Positions 605 through 26,110 of a stretch of DNA of 31,174 nucleotides are shown here, piece by piece (within the stretch, counting starts at the first letter, position 1; every line of letters begins with the position of its first letter). Where the stretch lies: IMG/VR virus record IMGVR_UViG_3300049255_000589, positions 1 to 31,174 of that record. One strand, written 5' to 3'. The stretch is from a virus. The position numbers were made by a program, and so were the translations under genes. The notes below the pieces were generated by a model. It did no database searches, was not told where the DNA came from, and saw only the letters and a program-made list of their open reading frames with translations.

Positions 605-2464
605 TTACTGGGCGCCAAGCAGGGTTTTAATACCCTGCGCCAGACGCGCCGCTAGATAGGAGTGGCCGTTGCCGGTCGGATGGCTCGCCACCAATGCGCT
701 GATGAGGACATCGTTCTTGTCCGTAGTGGGACTCGCCACCGTGCCGCTGCCGAATATCCATGCATTGCCTCCGCTGCCCGCCGACCACGGGTTGATGAAG
801 GGCACATTGCCATTTATGGGAGTAAGATACGCGGCTGCAGCTTGAATGGCTGAAGTATATTCCAGATCAAATGTGCCGATGACGCCCGTGTCCGCAGACG
901 TTGAAACCGAAACGGGGCCGCTGAATATGGCAATGGCTGTCGGGAAATTCTTCACAATGGCCTGCGCTGCCGCGGTGGCGTTCGTCTGTACCTGAGAAGC
1001 GGAATACGAAATATCGTTGAGTGACCCCTGCACGTACAGCACGAAGGGTAGCGCATTGCCGCTGCCGTCCTTCGGCACATTCGGCGCGACCTCGCCTGGA
1101 TAGTTGGTGACGGATGAGGTGAAGCCCGTACCACTCATGCCGGACGTGTTTATCGTGAGCGTCGCGCCGGGCATATTATGCAGAATCACGCGGATCGGAC
1201 GCGCCGGGAAATCGCTGTCAGCCACTACGGCATTATTGGAGGGAACATTAGACAGCGCATTGATGGCCGTCTGGACCGCCGAGGAAAGCGTGGCGGGCGT
1301 GCTCGACCAAGTGATATTTCCAGTAGTCTGCGTGCTGCCACCATACGTCACAGAAACCGTAAACGTACCCGAGGGATTGGTGCCGTTCGTCGTATTCAGG
1401 TTGATGTTGAACGCCTCGTTCGGCGGCGCGATGCGATCGAGGAAATTAAGATTGTTATTCGTGGCCACCCAGCCGCTCCCGCCCGCGCCGCACTGCACTT
1501 CCTGAAATCCGCATAGCCGGGCAAGCTGCGTGGACATATAGGGGTTGTTCATCGGCGCGCCGGTATTAGCGATAAGCGAGTCGCCTACGATAACCATGCG
1601 CAGCGATCCGGTTGGCGGCGCAGGCCATACGGTATCGTTCGGGCCGATGTTGACGCCGTAGAACGCACCGGTGACGATGGTAATCTTGCGCGTCGCCACA
1701 CTGCCGAAATTGAGGTTGAAAAGGTCGAATTCGCCGCTATTGGCGTTCGTGCTCAGGCCCGTGGAAGAATCCACGACGCGGTACACGGACGTGTTATCGG
1801 GCTGAGTGCTCCAGTTGCTCGCAACCGTCGCAACTTTGGTTGAGCCGACATACCCGGTGATTTGTTTCGTCTGACCAGCCCCGGTGCCGCTCAGGATAGT
1901 GACGTAGCACGTATTGTAGATCCCGTTCGTGGCGCTCGCGCCAGAAGACAAAGTAATCGTGTTAGCCCCGCCTGCCTGCGCCGTGCCCGCCTGTTCATAA
2001 GCTGACCATGTATCAAGGTACTGATCATCAACATAAACGGTGGTGTACTGGCCCACGCAGAAGGCGATGATATCGAGCTGGCTGCCGGAATGGTAGAACT
2101 CCACCGTAAGATTCGGCAAGGAATAATAGCCGGTGTTATAGGCGAGATTTTCCAGCACATTCGCTTGCACGACGGCGGGCGAACGTGGCCCGAGGTTGGC
2201 TCCTCCATATGTCCCGAAGATGGGATTGGGGACGGTGGTGCCTGTGATGACTCCATTAATAGTCTGCGCGCCCGAAATGCTTGATCCGGAAGTCGGATTA
2301 CTGACGTTGCCGCTGTACGTCACCGCAGGCAGCGTGCTTTTGGTGATTGGGGGCTGGACGGTCGAGAGCGAGCTCGTGAGCGACAGATTGGCAAGCGTTG
2401 TGCCCCCCGTGCCGCCCTGGGCGATTGATGCGACCGAGCCGTCGAGTGGATTGGTCTGTGTCAT
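605..2464 (-). CDS. Tail fibre with SGNH/GDSL-type hydrolase domain, 619 aa
   Basis: This is a probable receptor-binding fibre that carries an esterase or deacetylase acting on host surface glycans. The N-terminus has the fibre motif AQGGTGGTT (residues 15-23). A hydrolase domain begins with VIVGDSL (291-297; candidate nucleophile Ser296). It continues with a block-III-like QGSLND (479-484) and ends with a possible catalytic His in the stretch SHPTGNGH (His595 or His601). A Thr/Ser-rich beta-type insert of about 100 residues (roughly 355-455) separates the first two blocks. The ATG begins 1 nt after the stop of the upstream beta-helix fibre gene. Unlike that gene it has no signal peptide. The hydrolase call rests on motifs; the substrate is unknown. 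Confidence 0.75.
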   Translation of the reverse strand: MTQTNPLDGSVASIAQGGTGGTTLANLSLTSSLSTVQPPITKSTLPAVTYSGNVSNPTSGSSISGAQTINGVITGTTVPNPIFGTYGGANLGPRSPAVVQANVLENLAYNTGYYSLPNLTVEFYHSGSQLDIIAFCVGQYTTVYVDDQYLDTWSAYEQAGTAQAGGANTITLSSGASATNGIYNTCYVTILSGTGAGQTKQITGYVGSTKVATVASNWSTQPDNTSVYRVVDSSTGLSTNANSGEFDLFNLNFGSVATRKITIVTGAFYGVNIGPNDTVWPAPPTGSLRMVIVGDSLIANTGAPMNNPYMSTQLARLCGFQEVQCGAGGSGWVATNNNLNFLDRIAPPNEAFNINLNTTNGTNPSGTFTVSVTYGGSTQTTGNITWSSTPATLSSAVQTAINALSNVPSNNAVVADSDFPARPIRVILHNMPGATLTINTSGMSGTGFTSSVTNYPGEVAPNVPKDGSGNALPFVLYVQGSLNDISYSASQVQTNATAAAQAIVKNFPTAIAIFSGPVSVSTSADTGVIGTFDLEYTSAIQAAAAYLTPINGNVPFINPWSAGSGGNAWIFGSGTVASPTTDKNDVLISALVASHPTGNGHSYLAARLAQGIKTLLGAQ

Positions 2465-2465
2465 G

Positions 2466-4682
2466 TTAATTCACCGTCCATGAGCCCGTTATGTGATTTA
2501 CGTACCATTCGCTCGAGTTGAGCGCCTTGACGCAAAGCATCTCTCCCTGCGTCCCGTTGGAGGTAAAGTTTCCGCTGGCTGCGGTGACCGAGGTTCCGTT
2601 TCTGATGGTGTGTCCTGAATCCGCTGCGATGACTAAGGGATAGGCTGCATCGGCGACGAAACAACTGTTATGGCCGGCGGATGCCGTGGGAAGGGTGAAA
2701 GTGACGCTCCCCGTCGCGCCGGTATTGGTAAACAAAGTTCCGTCGTCGGATGCCTGTACCGCATAGGCTGAAGTCTTGACCGCGATAAGGGGACCGGGCA
2801 GGCGGGTGTTCTGGCCGCTGGCAACCAGGGGGGTGATCGAGCACGTTTCCGTGGAATTGTTGATGAACCCGGAAGAGAACAGGGCGCTTTGCCAGTTGCC
2901 CCCGACAATGCCAATGGGGGATATATCCGCCGTACCGAGGCACTCGATGCCGTACTTGGGAGCGACGAACCCCCCAAGCGTGCTTATCTGTGCGCCGTTT
3001 ATGCTTACCCCCGGATGCGACCCGGAAGAGGTATCGAATACGAATTCCGATTCCGCGCCCAAGACGCCGGCCTGCCCATCGCTACCAAGCTGGCCGCCGT
3101 TGATGGAATCGTTCGCATAATTGCCATCGAACCAGCCCGCAGGGCCATTATTGCCTTCAAACTGCGTCGTGATGTTCCAGCCAGGCCCATTGACCTCGAA
3201 GGCCGGTACCGCCGTCTTGCATACACCGGACATCCCGCCGTAACCGTTTTCTTCTGCCCGGTTGATGTCGATGATCACATTGGCCGTGCCGACATTGGCG
3301 CCAACGATTACCCCGCAGGCATTACCCGCGGCTTCGCCCCCGCGCCAGAAAGTATCCGTCAGGTTTCCGTTCGCGGCAAGGGCTGATTCCGCTACCGTTA
3401 CGTTATAGGCCCGGACGCCCATGTAATTGGAACAAGTGTTCCCGGAGCCCGTGTACGGGGTTGGGAAGCTGCTTCCCGAGCCGGAGGTATTAAGACCACA
3501 ACCCCAGGCGGTTCCTGTGCCTGAGAATCCCACGTTGAATAGATAGTGACGCGGTATCTGCCCCGAGCCCGTGTAATTGAAGGAATTGCAGAGGTCGGTG
3601 ATGCCGTTCTGTCCGCCATCACCGCCGAAGTTAATGTTTGCTTCCGTCGTGTCTACATAGCCGTTGTCGTTCAGGAAGCAATGGTTGGCGGTGGTGAAAT
3701 AACCAGAGTTGACATAAAGCTCTACGGCACTATTCGGGTTGTTCCCGTCATACATGAGGTTCTGCGGGTCGGCGAATATCGTTTCCCCGTGGCAGGCTTT
3801 GTTTACCTGTGACTGGAAGTTGTATTTGCCGGAAGTGTACTTGATTCTTTTCCATCCCCCGGTGCACGCATCCGTCTGGGCAAGCCTTAACGCCGGGGAA
3901 TTGTCCACGCTTCCGTTATTCGGAATGGCTCCGTACCACAGCGGATCGGAATAGCCAAAAAACGCCCCGCAGGTTGTAGGCATGAGGCTGCATACCGCTG
4001 CCGTAAAGGTATTCACGATCGAGACGTAATTCGATTTGATCCTCAGATTCGAGCCGTTCGACTCGAAGCTCAGCGCCTGCCCGTTCTGGTTAAGGGTGAT
4101 CGAGGCCGATCCGTCTATCGTTCCCGATGCCGGATTCAGCGTTATGGGATAGGTAGCAGCGTTGAGGCCGCCGTCCTTGATGGTGTACGTCTTTCCCGGA
4201 ACCGGATTCGACGGACCCGTTACCGCGCAGGAGCCCGACGCCTGGTTGATTTCAACAATCTGATCCGCTGCGGTCATGTTGACCGGGCAGGACGTCACTA
4301 CCCGCTGCGCTGGGTACATGTCGGTGATCACCCCGGCGGTGACGAACTGCCCCACCTGCGCGCCCGCAGAATGCCCGGTTGCCGTAGTTCCCTCATAGCC
4401 GCGCGTCACGGTATAGGTGTTTCCGGAAATGGCCGTGACGAGGTCTATCTCCGGCGTTGATCCCACCGAGTCCTGTATGGTTATCCTGAACGGTGCGCTG
4501 GTCGGGAAATTTGCGGTCGAGACCACCGTCAGGCTCGTATCGGTGCTCCCAATGGTTGCCGCCAATGTTGTGAGCCCGAAATTGGAGAACTGCTCCGCCC
4601 ACACGGCACTCAGGCTGAAGGCCAGCACAACGAGGGCCAGCAACGCGACCCCGAGGCCGTTGGAAGACGCGATCTTCCTCAT
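2466..4682 (-). CDS. Signal-peptide-bearing beta-helix tail fibre/spike, 738 aa
   Basis: The chosen ATG at 4682 gives a clear Sec signal peptide: basic MRK, a hydrophobic core from about residue 9 to 26, and a VWA cleavage site at 27-29. The open frame continues further upstream, but only as antisense-like Arg/Gly-rich sequence over the Gly-rich gene, so the upstream starts are rejected. After the signal come a fibre N-terminal domain (about 31-120, with TVTRGYEGTTATGHSAG), a beta module (about 125-215), and a pectate-lyase-like beta-helix entry (WYGAIPNNGSVDNSPAL near 249). A second copy of the beta module sits at the C-terminus. The protein has about 16 Cys, unusually many for a cytoplasmic virion protein. 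The domains indicate a spike or adhesin; the export signal makes its place of assembly uncertain. Confidence 0.75.
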   Translation of the reverse strand: MRKIASSNGLGVALLALVVLAFSLSAVWAEQFSNFGLTTLAATIGSTDTSLTVVSTANFPTSAPFRITIQDSVGSTPEIDLVTAISGNTYTVTRGYEGTTATGHSAGAQVGQFVTAGVITDMYPAQRVVTSCPVNMTAADQIVEINQASGSCAVTGPSNPVPGKTYTIKDGGLNAATYPITLNPASGTIDGSASITLNQNGQALSFESNGSNLRIKSNYVSIVNTFTAAVCSLMPTTCGAFFGYSDPLWYGAIPNNGSVDNSPALRLAQTDACTGGWKRIKYTSGKYNFQSQVNKACHGETIFADPQNLMYDGNNPNSAVELYVNSGYFTTANHCFLNDNGYVDTTEANINFGGDGGQNGITDLCNSFNYTGSGQIPRHYLFNVGFSGTGTAWGCGLNTSGSGSSFPTPYTGSGNTCSNYMGVRAYNVTVAESALAANGNLTDTFWRGGEAAGNACGVIVGANVGTANVIIDINRAEENGYGGMSGVCKTAVPAFEVNGPGWNITTQFEGNNGPAGWFDGNYANDSINGGQLGSDGQAGVLGAESEFVFDTSSGSHPGVSINGAQISTLGGFVAPKYGIECLGTADISPIGIVGGNWQSALFSSGFINNSTETCSITPLVASGQNTRLPGPLIAVKTSAYAVQASDDGTLFTNTGATGSVTFTLPTASAGHNSCFVADAAYPLVIAADSGHTIRNGTSVTAASGNFTSNGTQGEMLCVKALNSSEWYVNHITGSWTVN

Positions 4683-4720
4683 ACGTCCAATCCCTTGAAA
4701 AACTGTTGTTTGTAGAAGGC

Positions 4721-5986
4721 TTATTCCTGCCACGTCAGGGTGAGATAGCCGGTAGATCCGACGCCCCCGGCTGCGCCTGCGCCGCCCTGAGAGCCCGTCG
4801 ATGCTTTCAATCCTCCGCCGCCGCCACCAGGTCCCCCCGAGCCGCCGCATCCCGCGCACGCCGCGTTGACCGTTACCCCGGAGTTGCCGTTCGCTCCCGA
4901 TGCTCCGCCAGCGCCACCTGCGGTCGCCGCCTGCGCGTTGGCATCGCCAGCCATAATTCCTGCCGCGCCACCTCCACCACCACCGCCTCCGGTGCCGCCG
5001 GCCGTTCCTCCGGAAGCGCCGGTAGTATAAGAACCAAAGGGCGAGAATACATACTGAGTGTTCCCGTTTCCCCCGGCAGTATTGGCCGCTCCCCCAGCTC
5101 CACCTGTCGGGTTTGACTGAAAGACGCTGATTCCGGGATATCCCGCCGCGCCGCCGGTGGATAGGCTTCCCGGATTTCCATTCGCCCCGGCCGTGCCTCC
5201 AATGAACGTAATTAAGGAGCCGAAGCTGGTATTGCCACCAGCCCCGCCTACCGTTCCGTAACCACCGGTAGAACCGCTGGCATTGGCAGCCGCAGGAATA
5301 CCGCCCGCTCCGGCCGTTCCGCCAGCGCCGATGGTGATGGTATATCCAGTTCCCGGAGTGACGGTTGCCGGATAACAAGTAGTGCTTACGCTCCCGCCAT
5401 TACCACCAGCTCCTCCTCCAGCTGCGCCTGCGGCAGTCGAACCGCCGCCGCCAGCTCCACCGCCGGAACCTCCTCCGGAGCCGCCGCGCCCGCAGGCTAC
5501 GACCTGTGTCACTCCCGCGGGGGCAGTCCAGGTGTAGGTTCCGCTCGATGTCCAGCTTGCCTTTGCGAAATTCGACGCGGCGGAGACTTTGTTCCAGTTC
5601 GTCCCGTCAGCCTGTAATTTGTAGTTCCCCCAGTTAGCAGAGAGAACGAGCGAAGCGGCGATGCCCTCTATCTTTTCGCTCGCATGCTGCTGGAGCGTGA
5701 CGGCATTGGTGCCGAAGTTCCCCTTGGCGTCCTTGATCTGCAGCGTGTAATACTGCGTCGGGTCGGGAAGCACCAGCGTCACGGCTCCGCCGGTCGTGTC
5801 CACTAAAAGAAGCTTGTCGGACGGCTGTATAGAGTATGGGGAGGCCGCAAAGTTTACGGAAGTGATCTGGCCCGAGGGAACGCTATAGCTTCCGGCGGTA
5901 CTGCCGCCCGTTTCAACCGTCGCCTGCGCTGGAGGCGCCAGCAGAAGGAGGGCAACCGAGGCCGCCGATATGAGCTTTCTGAACAT
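4721..5986 (-). CDS. Signal-peptide-bearing glycine-rich fibre/adhesin, 421 aa
   Basis: The start at 5986 overlaps the stop of the preceding gene (TGATG), and it places an ideal Sec signal peptide at residues 1-22 (MFRK, a Leu/Ala core, PPAQA cleavage site). Longer upstream starts give unrelated sequence. Residues 50-134 form the fibre beta module also seen in the next gene (IQPSDKLLLVDTTGGAVTL, then DGTNWNKV). From about 145 a WTAPAGVTQVVACG entry leads into a very long Gly-rich domain ending in STGYLTLTW. This is the arrangement of Gly-rich phage adhesin domains, which stack as polyglycine helices in some T4-like adhesins. There are four Cys after the signal. The role in host binding is inferred from the architecture. 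Confidence 0.75.
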   Translation of the reverse strand: MFRKLISAASVALLLLAPPAQATVETGGSTAGSYSVPSGQITSVNFAASPYSIQPSDKLLLVDTTGGAVTLVLPDPTQYYTLQIKDAKGNFGTNAVTLQQHASEKIEGIAASLVLSANWGNYKLQADGTNWNKVSAASNFAKASWTSSGTYTWTAPAGVTQVVACGRGGSGGGSGGGAGGGGSTAAGAAGGGAGGNGGSVSTTCYPATVTPGTGYTITIGAGGTAGAGGIPAAANASGSTGGYGTVGGAGGNTSFGSLITFIGGTAGANGNPGSLSTGGAAGYPGISVFQSNPTGGAGGAANTAGGNGNTQYVFSPFGSYTTGASGGTAGGTGGGGGGGGAAGIMAGDANAQAATAGGAGGASGANGNSGVTVNAACAGCGGSGGPGGGGGGLKASTGSQGGAGAAGGVGSTGYLTLTWQE

Positions 5987-6366
5987 CAGTTGCCCTCGCC
6001 GGCGGTGAACGTTACTGTCGAATTCCCGGATGCGGTAATCGCGGCACACGTTGTCGAGCCCGAGCCCTTGTGATAAACACCACATAACGTCGGCTGAAGC
6101 GGGGTGGACCCGCAACCCGCCCCCGGAACGCAAGCCTGCACGGCGCTGTTACCGCACTGCCAGTAAATCATCGTGGATCCGATATCGCAGACCTTGACGT
6201 CCGGAGCGGCAATTGCAGAGGTAAGTGTGAAGCTCGTGGCCGAGCTGCTGGTGGTCGCCGAGACGGCGAGGGGTGTCTCCATTGGAGTGAAATTATCCGC
6301 CCCCCATGCGTGCGCAGCCAGGAGAGCGCAGGCCACAAAGGCAAGCGCGCGATGAATCATCTTCAT
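5986..6366 (-). CDS. Exported cysteine-rich small protein, 126 aa
   Basis: Residues 1-23 form a Sec-type signal peptide (MKMIHR, then an Ala/Leu core, then AWGA near the cleavage site). The mature part (about 103 residues) begins FTPMETPLAV and ends ASGNSTVTFTAGEGN, which resembles small phage beta-sandwich structural proteins. It contains six Cys (60, 71, 79, 85, 95, 107), an even number consistent with disulphides in the periplasm. Its stop overlaps the start of the Gly-rich fibre gene, so the two are probably translated together. No function is assigned; it may be a small virion or surface protein working with the two exported fibres downstream. Confidence 0.7.
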   Translation of the reverse strand: MKMIHRALAFVACALLAAHAWGADNFTPMETPLAVSATTSSSATSFTLTSAIAAPDVKVCDIGSTMIYWQCGNSAVQACVPGAGCGSTPLQPTLCGVYHKGSGSTTCAAITASGNSTVTFTAGEGN

Positions 6367-7331: not shown

Positions 7332-9017
7332 CTATATCCTCACGGTCCCCACCAGGGCGCCGCTTGAATAGGTTGCCGTGCCCGCGCTGGTACTGCCCAG
7401 AAGGACCGCGGTATGCAGCCCTTCCGACAGGAATGACTCGTAAAAGGCACTTAATCCGGCCGATTGGTTCGCCGCCGCGGAATACATCTGGCCGCTGACC
7501 GCAACCGCAGTGGTAGAGTCTATTCCAATCGAAACACCGCAGCTATTACCCATCGCGGAGTTGGCGGCGATGGCGTTCGCAATGACATGCACATCTTCAT
7601 CTCCCCACGTCAGGAAGGCGGCATTAGCCGCCGTCAGCAGCGCGACAAAGGCAGATGAAGTGGTCGTCTGCCCCGAAAGCGGAGACGGGCTGCCGATCGG
7701 CACAAGCCTGCGGTTGAAATAGCTCGCGGTATAGCGCTGCCCGACCGTGTCGGCGAACGCCGGGCCGGTATTTATATACGCCATGCCTACCAGCGTGCGC
7801 GAACTATCGCTGGATTTCACCTCTACGCCGGTAGCGCCGTTGGTTGTGTGGCCGGTCGTGGAGGCTTCCAAAGTCATGGAGGAGCCATTCATGTAGGCGT
7901 AGATGTAATAGAGCGTCGACGGCGTAAGTCCGGTCGGGGCAAGCGTAATGCCCCCTGAAGGAATCGGCTGCGATACTCCATTGATAATCAGCTTGTTGCC
8001 GTTGAACTGATTCAGGGCAAGATTGGAGCCCGAAACCGTGAGTCGGCACTGGCCATGTCCCGAACCAGCCACCAGGCCCTGCAACTGGAAATGCGATCCG
8101 TCGCACATGAACGTATAAAGGCCGTTTGCCTGCAGCGCCCCGGCGGGAAGAGGGTTACCCGATTGATCGTACAGCGCGACATTGCCAAGGCCGTTCACAT
8201 TCATCACCGCGGCATTCGTGGTCGTCGTATTGGCGACTTTCACCTTCACCACCTGACCGGCCTGATAAGAAGAAATCGCCGGGGTGAGCGCGACGGTTAT
8301 CGTATTGGCTGCGCCGCTGGTATCCTGCGCATAGACCGGCGCCCCGCTCTGGATGTCCGCGATTATGCCCGTCAGCTTCGGGCTGACGAAGGGCGCGGTG
8401 GATAGTTGCTGGATATTGCCGCTCGTGATAGTCGTCGCGCCGTTTGCGACGGTGATGGCCCATAACCCGGTGAATCCCGCGTCCGGCGAAGGCGTGGTTT
8501 GGGTGCCTGTCGTCGCGGCGACGCCCGCCTTGATCTGAATCTGGCATACGCCCTGGCGCACGGTGTTTTGAGAAACGCCGGTATTATTCGGTCCGTTATA
8601 AGCGACGGCAGGATTGGATGCGTTGTAATAAGGCAACACTGTCGAGCCGCCGTCAACATCCTCGTAGGCCGCCTCCACCAGGTACACAATCGACTGACCC
8701 GACGTGGCGGGCGCGGGACAACTCAGGTTCGCGGTATTGATCGCGAGGCCTTGCTTCATGATCTGGTGGGTCGTGTCCGGCGCGAGACTGCCGTAAGCAG
8801 AGCCGTCGACATTCTCCACGGCGTAAATGGCCCCAGGACCAACATTCACGGTCATGCCCGCCGGGGACGTAGGCGTACAGGACAGACCGTCAACCCATGT
8901 GCCGCTGCCCAGCACCGCCTGGATGAGGTAGCCAAGGCCGAACATGACATTCTTGTTCTGGCTCAGCTGATCCACGTCCTGCGGGATGGCTCCCACGTAA
9001 ACAATTTGCCTGTCCAA
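7332..9017 (-). CDS. Baseplate-associated tail fibre, 561 aa
   Basis: The start codon is TTG (9015-9017), supported by AAGGAG 6 nt upstream. The N-terminus DRQIVYVGAIPQDVD followed by NVMFGLGYLIQAVLG is typical of fibre proteins attached to P2-like baseplates. The middle is Thr/Ala/Gly-rich beta structure with repeated NTITVALT-like and LTPSTLYYIYAY segments, and the C-terminus ends ALVGTVRI. It follows the gpI-like gene, the usual position of the first tail fibre gene in P2-like baseplate operons. It has no signal peptide, unlike the fibre genes further downstream, and probably is the fibre that docks on the baseplate. Confidence 0.75.
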   Translation of the reverse strand: MDRQIVYVGAIPQDVDQLSQNKNVMFGLGYLIQAVLGSGTWVDGLSCTPTSPAGMTVNVGPGAIYAVENVDGSAYGSLAPDTTHQIMKQGLAINTANLSCPAPATSGQSIVYLVEAAYEDVDGGSTVLPYYNASNPAVAYNGPNNTGVSQNTVRQGVCQIQIKAGVAATTGTQTTPSPDAGFTGLWAITVANGATTITSGNIQQLSTAPFVSPKLTGIIADIQSGAPVYAQDTSGAANTITVALTPAISSYQAGQVVKVKVANTTTTNAAVMNVNGLGNVALYDQSGNPLPAGALQANGLYTFMCDGSHFQLQGLVAGSGHGQCRLTVSGSNLALNQFNGNKLIINGVSQPIPSGGITLAPTGLTPSTLYYIYAYMNGSSMTLEASTTGHTTNGATGVEVKSSDSSRTLVGMAYINTGPAFADTVGQRYTASYFNRRLVPIGSPSPLSGQTTTSSAFVALLTAANAAFLTWGDEDVHVIANAIAANSAMGNSCGVSIGIDSTTAVAVSGQMYSAAANQSAGLSAFYESFLSEGLHTAVLLGSTSAGTATYSSGALVGTVRI

Positions 9018-25069: not shown

Positions 25070-26110
25070 TTAGCCGAATACCGCCACGTCGAACGTGCCG
25101 GCAGAAAGCGTATTCCCCGAAGCGGGCGGCGTCAGTTCGACGGTAAAGCCGCTCGTAAACTTCGTGACCGGCGGCACGTTGGCAAACGCCGGCATGCCCG
25201 GCTGCACCAGAGCTCCATAGGTCGGCGGCAAGCCGAAATTATTCACCGCCGTATAGATGGGATTGCCGTTGCCACCGAGCGTGGGAGCCGCAATAGAGGC
25301 ACCCGTGCCGCTCGCGGTGTCCGTCACCGTCAGGCCGGTCGGAGCTACGGTATAGCTGCCGCTGTTGGTAATCTGTGCCGTTCCAAGGCCGAATACGGGA
25401 TTGAACGTCGCGCCGGTGCCGCTGCCGGACGTGCTGGCCTGCGCCGCGCCATTGCCGGGAGCGGCAGTATAGCCGCCCGCCGTCGAAACCGTCACGGCGT
25501 TGACACCCCAGACCGCGCTCTTGAAGGTCGCCCCGGAGCCGGAGCCAGACGTGGAACCCTGCGTGAAGGTCGAAGCCTCGGCAGTGTAAACACCGGCGTT
25601 CGTGATGTTGAAGCCCGTTATCGCCCCGCTATTCACGCTCGTTACCGTCACCACGGCATTCGTGGTTTCAGTCCCGCCCGAAAGCGTGACCGTATCTCCC
25701 ACGGCGTAACCGCTTCCACCGGCGTTTATGGCCAGCCCCACGAGCTGGGCCTTGCTCACCGTCAGCACGCTCGCCACGCCATTCACGGGCGACAGCGCCT
25801 GCAGCGTACCGCCGGCAAGGGTGATCGTATCGTTGATGGCGTAACCGCTACCCGGCGCAACAGGAGTCGCCGACACGCATTTCAGCGAGGTCGGAACTGC
25901 CGTCAATCCACTCCCCGTTCCGCCCGTCGGCGCGATGGATACCGTCTTGATATTCGAGAAGCCGGTTCCCGCCGTGATAGCCCCGAGGGCGGTTATGGCA
26001 ACGGCGGAGGCTACGGAGGCAACGCCGCACAGCAATCCGAATAAGAGGCGATCCTGCCTGTTAAGCTGGCTGCCATTCATCGCCTCAACGGTATGTAGGT
26101 CCAGACCCAT
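25070..26110 (-). CDS. Repeat-rich structural protein with Gly-Tyr motifs, 346 aa
   Basis: The ATG at 26110 lies 2 nt after the portal stop with AGGA upstream; an internal ATG at residue 11 is an alternative. Residues 22-48 are hydrophobic (LLFGLLCGVASVASAVAITA and following). The body has imperfect repeats of the pattern GSGYAxxDTxTLxGGT (near residues 87-101 and 130-145), and STSGSGSGATF, STSGSGTGATF and TASGTGASIAAP occur further on. This is a beta-repeat protein similar to phage fibre or decoration segments. Between portal and protease it may be a head fibre or decoration protein; the function is inferred. Confidence 0.55.
   Translation of the reverse strand: MGLDLHTVEAMNGSQLNRQDRLLFGLLCGVASVASAVAITALGAITAGTGFSNIKTVSIAPTGGTGSGLTAVPTSLKCVSATPVAPGSGYAINDTITLAGGTLQALSPVNGVASVLTVSKAQLVGLAINAGGSGYAVGDTVTLSGGTETTNAVVTVTSVNSGAITGFNITNAGVYTAEASTFTQGSTSGSGSGATFKSAVWGVNAVTVSTAGGYTAAPGNGAAQASTSGSGTGATFNPVFGLGTAQITNSGSYTVAPTGLTVTDTASGTGASIAAPTLGGNGNPIYTAVNNFGLPPTYGALVQPGMPAFANVPPVTKFTSGFTVELTPPASGNTLSAGTFDVAVFG

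Follow-up and report, generated by a model that had tools for sequence, protein, structure and literature searches.

Here we report an analysis of three consecutive genes, P1, P2 and P3, in IMG/VR virus record IMGVR_UViG_3300049255_000589, each of which encodes a protein that begins with a predicted Sec-type signal peptide and lies among the tail genes of a phage. The window, i.e., the whole stretch of DNA that was analysed, is this 31,174-base virus record; its minus strand encodes a head, a contractile tail with baseplate and fibres, and lysis-type proteins, which point to a myovirus-like phage. The three genes had been singled out in a first-pass annotation, and their coordinates, reading frames and strand proved to be correct:

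5986..6366, minus strand: P1, small Cys-rich protein of 126 amino acids, with signal peptide MKMIHRALAFVACALLAAHAWG cut before A and ribosome site AGAGGAAAC before the ATG
4721..5986, minus strand: P2, Gly-rich adhesin-type fibre of 421 amino acids, signal ending APPAQA/TVE, matching phrog_863 and phrog_8859
2466..4682, minus strand: P3, fibre or tailspike-type protein of 738 amino acids with 16 Cys, signal ending AVWA/EQFSNF, matching phrog_6427, phrog_8469, phrog_12150 and phrog_38058

Signal peptides of P1, P2 and P3

Signal peptides were scored with a home-made program that combines n-region charge, h-region hydropathy and a weight matrix built on 26 E. coli signals, and that served as no more than a stand-in for SignalP. 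By this measure, P1, P2 and P3 have the n-, h- and c-region layout of Sec-type signals with an A-x-A-type cleavage site. They score 11.7, 18.6 and 11.1, respectively, while the other 29 predicted genes of the window reach at most 6.6, and the two neighbouring fibres, the first tail fibre FIB (7332-9017) and the esterase-type fibre P4 (605-2464), score -10.4 and -6.2. Both the claim of signals on three consecutive genes and that of their absence from the flanking fibres are thus upheld. None of 5000 random internal segments of each protein reached that protein's own signal score, and shuffled N-termini did so in 2.1% (P1), 0% (P2) and 4% (P3) of draws. P1 and P3 score below the E. coli signals (17-29), a set on which the scorer itself was trained. 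The cleavage of P3 at VWA/EQF, proposed in the first-pass annotation, is backed by the site SDA/EQY in a homologue from locus L031 of our collection of related phages, although the scorer preferred a site three residues earlier. Tat motifs and lipoboxes were searched for by pattern in the three signals and gave no match, and Tat or lipoprotein signals were rejected as an explanation.

A misplaced start codon, with translation beginning past the hydrophobic stretch, would remove the signals altogether, and had been named in the first-pass annotation as a possible refutation. Beyond the general risk of start errors nothing speaks for it. A ribosome-binding site precedes the annotated start of each gene, and the next in-frame starts past the signal are poor: that of P1, at residue 29, has no well-spaced ribosome site, that of P2, at residue 62, falls well inside the mature protein and its domain, and that of P3, at residue 40, is a TTG. 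We rejected start-codon error on these grounds and consider it highly improbable. Export of P1-P3 via Sec is well supported by their sequences and by the recurrence of such signals in relatives (see below), and we infer that the three proteins leave the cytoplasm.

Elsewhere in the window, the best remaining signal score (6.6) belongs to a beta-repeat protein (25070-26110, minus strand) that adjoins a portal-type gene and is hydrophobic over a long stretch close to its N-terminus (RLLFGLLCGVASVASAVAITALGAI). It recalls the signal-bearing fibre-like genes beside head genes in locus L129, described below; the length of the hydrophobic stretch, however, leaves room for a membrane or structural helix.

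Domain composition and relatives of P1, P2 and P3

Following the signal, P2 has a beta-type module at its N-terminus and a Gly-rich domain at its C-terminus, and P3 has a fibre N-terminal module, a probable beta-helix middle part and a beta C-terminal module; the likeness of the middle part (WYGAIPNNGSVDNSPALRLAQ...YTSGKYNF) to a beta-helix tailspike was judged by eye only. The domains had been described earlier as standard phage adhesin modules, which is right in kind: tail and fibre profiles of PHROG match P2 and P3, and the P3 domain aligns to tail fibre PHROGs from near the profile N-terminus. P1 has no such match, and no Pfam family was reported for any of the three even at E 1. All three share strand and operon with the baseplate J-like gene, the phrog_26379 gene and the first fibre gene.

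A translated search of 50,697 phage records returned no relatives of P1 or P2, those of P2 possibly being hidden by the low-complexity filter. In cultured phages, P3 was matched in its N-terminal domain only, by Streptomyces phages and one metagenomic phage; a direct search of viral contigs with P3 gave no match, and an alignment search with its N-terminus found only the contig of L031. A sequence search of solved structures returned nothing useful, and single-sequence AlphaFold models were of low confidence, with a mean predicted local distance difference test score (pLDDT) of 45 for P1 and 34 for P3. Among 92 relatives, about 26 have a FIB whose C-terminal domain is similar to the Gly-rich domain of P2; FIB carries no signal there. 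BLAST scores for this pair reflect mostly composition, shuffled P2 reaching 129 bits against 135 for the real sequence; the best single-domain profile score separates them better (118 against at most 71 in the top shuffles listed), so that a link between the two domains is supported better by profile than by BLAST.

Genomic setting

The genes around P1-P3 are listed below in transcription order; P1, P2 and P3 follow the lysozyme-like gene and precede P4, after which come two small genes.

10835-9711, minus strand: baseplate J-like protein, annotated baseplate J/gp47 in relatives and used as a hook for finding them
9698-9033, minus strand: baseplate-type protein preceding the fibre, phrog_26379 (PHROG match E 1e-91)
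9017-7332, minus strand: first tail fibre FIB, no signal by score; its N-terminal 215 amino acids are conserved in hundreds of relatives
7263-6823, minus strand: probable holin-type membrane protein (phrog_689, E 0.0035; 65% identity to the L031 homologue)
6799-6374, minus strand: lysozyme-like protein, either an endolysin or a virion lysin by type, encoded immediately before P1 (phrog_873, E 1.9e-44)
2464-605, minus strand: P4, SGNH/GDSL-type esterase fibre without signal peptide, the operon gene after P3 (PF13472, E 0.01, below the cut-off)

From the lysozyme-like gene through P1, P2 and P3 to P4, successive genes are separated by 7, -1, 38 and 1 base, and scans of 605-6366 for promoters (with an E. 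coli-type consensus) and terminators brought up no candidate on the minus strand. Packed into a late operon in which no promoter or terminator of their own was seen, P1-P3 look like late lytic genes. They do not have the form of a moron, i.e., a gene with its own promoter and terminator that is separable from the late operon. In L031 and L024, signal-bearing genes likewise lie between the first fibre and lysis-type genes. This setting suits late lytic expression and is at odds with a free-standing conversion gene.

Among cultured phages, phiKX1 and phiKX2 of Komagataeibacter are the nearest relatives, with proteins that are 39-40% identical, and plasmid-borne relatives were found in Rhodovastum (Acetobacteraceae), Aquitalea, Pantoea and Paraburkholderia, from which the known hosts of this phage group are Gram-negative. 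phiKX1 and phiKX2 stem from a study of temperate phages that mitomycin induces in acetic-acid bacteria, each of them of myovirus type (PMC8566455). A close relative in L048, with 66% identity in the baseplate-type protein, lies at one end of a 161-kb contig that has been assigned to a Planctomycetota metagenome-assembled genome, which is either an unexpected host or a binning error. In the Pantoea elements, the FIB gene is followed by annotated tail fibre assembly genes. Elsewhere, the PLSDB gene table calls a short phage gene after a tail fibre (L145:9261-9632) an OCH-5 beta-lactamase at 100% identity; its 123-amino-acid product resembles a tail fibre assembly-type protein, and the resistance call is probably spurious.

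Recurrence of signal-bearing fibres in other phages

More than 120 related loci were gathered via the baseplate J-like protein and the N-terminal domain of FIB, the latter being encoded in at least 471 IMG/VR stretches. Loci were taken as signal-bearing when a protein exceeded the score threshold or was read as such by eye. Fibre-like genes with signals follow FIB in L024 (three genes), L031 (two), L034, L041, L044 (two), L054, L055, L068, L073 and L128, and one precedes it in L040. Thus, 11 loci with FIB besides the window carry signal-bearing fibre or tailspike genes, and they are scattered on the FIB tree. When 11 signal-bearing loci are marked on a tree built from 71 FIB domains, the trait requires at least eight changes, three of them forced by well-supported branches; L068 is not labelled there, as it was recognised after the tree was made. 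Two loci with other backbones, L129 with three consecutive signal-bearing fibre-like proteins beside portal and head-type genes and L130 with one between tail genes, demonstrate that the trait crosses phage groups. Counted together, the trait recurs in at least a dozen other phages, both related and unrelated.

Outside the window, 13 of the 87 fibre-like open reading frames after FIB exceed the signal threshold, compared with three of 341 upstream (Fisher p 1.5e-7, uncorrected for kinship). The automatic calls upstream are in part false positives from baseplate protein helices, and the counts of signal-bearing genes are lower bounds, since the scorer misses clear cases (L041, L024a, L130, L068). 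None of 106 FIB proteins of relatives reaches the threshold, in line with the premise of the first-pass annotation that phage fibres normally lack export signals; signal-bearing fibres are nevertheless less rare than it supposed. In nearly all recurrent cases, a basic n-region, a short h-region and a small-x-Ala cleavage site precede a fibre module, and the signal sequences are unrelated to each other. No report of tailed-phage fibres with signal peptides came up in our search of open-access papers. Judging from these sequences, it appears that certain phages secrete proteins of fibre type, either ahead of attaching them to the particle or without doing so at all.

Three further observations concern these loci. 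A small Cys-containing protein with a strong signal peptide is encoded directly after an endolysin-type gene (L024:18422-18724) and is possibly lysis related or another exported phage protein. A fibre-like protein with two hydrophobic, membrane-type N-terminal stretches follows directly after a signal-bearing fibre gene (L034:9144-10544) and is a possible membrane-anchored variant. L003 and L044 are related phage records of one IMG entry (2883327909), the former with fibres that lack signals and the latter with fibres that bear them, and form a natural experimental pair.

Modules and cysteine content of signal-bearing proteins

The signals stand on modules that occur without them elsewhere. 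P3 and its L031 homologue are 73% identical over the first 94 mature residues, and their signals differ in length and sequence; in both, the predicted cleavage falls just before EQ[FY]SNF, so that signal character was kept while sequence diverged. The SGNH esterase module of the L044 protein is 37% identical to gp62 of Mesorhizobium phage Lo5R7ANS, which has no signal and in which the module begins after a short Gly linker, and 32-35% identical to Rhizobium and Shewanella phage proteins, none of them with a signal. The signal-bearing L073 protein (FIQGQILTAAQLN) and the L096 protein without a signal (MGSFIDGQILTASQLN) have in common the N-terminal motif FI.GQILTA.QLN, a short motif only (BLAST E 0.6). 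In L054, L055 and L128, signal and N-terminal module were kept as a unit.

Recognisable domains on signal-bearing proteins include a GDSL esterase in L024 (E 2e-14) and L129 (E 1.4e-5), an esterase together with a LamG lectin domain in L044, and, narrowly missing the Pfam cut-off, a pectate-lyase-type region in L068. The median Cys content of signal-bearing fibres is 1.27%, compared with 0.39% in fibres without signals (p 1e-4) and 0.72% in first fibres (p 4e-4), both tests being uncorrected for kinship; such richness suits an oxidising compartment.

Proposed role and alternative explanations

The reading we favour, which we hold tentatively and at somewhat below an even chance, is that P1-P3 act off the virion as Sec-exported proteins that bind or modify glycans of the envelope and exopolysaccharide. 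It is preferred because the domains of their signal-bearing counterparts act on or bind glycans and because exported bacterial proteins of tailspike fold or fibre-like type are known to have roles of this kind (WceF and MAT, see below). P1-P3 would be made late, together with the tail and lysis genes, and be sent by the host Sec pathway into the periplasm, where signal peptidase would cut off the signals and disulphides would form. Set free at lysis, they could bind or modify envelope and exopolysaccharide glycans, thus freeing or shielding receptors, and progeny would escape trapping on debris or on already infected cells. Several points weigh against this role: domain searches recognised no enzymatic domain in P1-P3, and P4 has one yet bears no signal; fibre N-terminal modules stand at the start of the mature proteins, as would be expected if these docked to a virion; the promoter scan rests on an E. 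coli-type consensus; and neither the census nor the Cys tests were corrected for kinship.

The same N-terminal modules place second, as an unlikely but serious competitor, the proposal that P1-P3 are virion parts mounted outside the cytoplasm, with tail particles that exit at lysis picking up disulphide-bonded fibres from the periplasm. The mature N-termini resemble those of virion fibres, as seen in the PHROG alignment of P3, the L073/L096 motif and the likeness of the L044 module to Lo5R7ANS gp62, and the adhesin-type domain of P2 sits on the first fibre, without a signal, in relatives. Against this, the L073/L096 likeness is short, the modules may be mere inheritance from virion ancestors, the proteins would be diluted after lysis, and no tailed-phage precedent was found in open-access papers. 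The general form of this idea, that part of the adsorption apparatus of some tailed phages is put together extracytoplasmically, with fibres exported, oxidised in the periplasm and mounted at or after lysis, would permit disulphide-bonded adhesins and delay adsorption to the producer cell; we regard it as doubtful. Display on, or action at, the surface of the lysogen, as in lysogenic conversion by lambda Lom, a signal peptide protein encoded among tail fibre genes (PMC12309495), is improbable. The inducible temperate nature of the nearest cultured relatives, which are phages of acetic-acid bacteria (PMC8566455), and the surface display of Bdellovibrio MAT fibres (PMC10769870) speak for it; the tight late-operon packing, with no promoter- or terminator-like site inside the cluster on the minus strand, and the failure to recognise an outer-membrane anchor or translocator domain in the proteins speak against it. 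Among the three uses of export suggested in the first-pass annotation, namely display on the cell, loading onto particles outside the cytoplasm and blocking of receptors, lysogen display is accordingly the least supported, while export itself gained support from sequence and recurrence. Still less probable, in our estimate, is a hydrophobic N-terminus that serves as a plug or trimerisation segment in proteins that stay cytoplasmic and join the virion normally. The lower scores of P1 and P3 relative to E. coli signals, equalled by 2-4% of their shuffled N-termini, would agree with it. It is hard to reconcile with the shared n- and h-regions and small-x-Ala site of nearly all recurrent cases across unrelated signal sequences, and with the conserved signal character in the diverged P3 and L031 pair.

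By the usual view, tailed phages finish their particles while still in the cytoplasm. Recurrent exported fibres and tailspikes, if real, would amount either to a new extracytoplasmic assembly step or to a set of lectins and esterases that the phage secretes and that remodel the host surface in the course of lysis, and both alternatives would change what phage genomes are taken to say about host range, superinfection and the release of progeny. A signal-bearing fibre-type gene should not pass as a virion receptor-binding protein without proof.

Comparison with known systems

To our knowledge, the fibres and tailspikes of tailed phages assemble in the cytoplasm and have no signals. P1-P3 agree with them, including the SGNH-esterase and Gly-rich adhesin types, in their modules, in their position after baseplate and first fibre genes and in a beta-rich composition with much Gly, Ser, Thr and Asn; they differ in that each begins with a Sec-type signal and that signal-bearing proteins tend to be Cys-rich. 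A similar layout, by description, is that of the mosaic adhesive trimer (MAT) proteins of Bdellovibrio, which are phage-fibre-like, have a conserved beta-rich domain of about 130 amino acids behind their signal peptide and are used outside the cytoplasm (PMC10769870), but which are surface displayed and encoded by chromosomal genes of a predator. Pfam found no C-terminal S74 chaperone domain in P1-P3. This domain is present in 13 of 21 MAT members (PMC10769870), so that its absence, shared by the other eight, does not exclude membership, which we do not claim.

Lambda Lom is a signal-bearing phage protein encoded within the fibre region (PMC12309495); unlike P1-P3, it forms a beta-barrel in the outer membrane rather than a fibre, and the lysogen expresses it. 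WceF of Pantoea stewartii is a tailspike-fold enzyme with an export signal that acts on exopolysaccharide (PMC7949094), and differs in being bacterial, in lying in an exopolysaccharide operon and in using a Tat rather than a Sec signal. The endolysin Lys44 of phage fOg44 is a late protein with a cleavable signal, exported via Sec during phage development before lysis (PMC6116005); it is a muralytic enzyme, neither adhesin nor fibre. The parts found at the locus are familiar, and what is new is the combination of signal and fibre, together with its recurrence.

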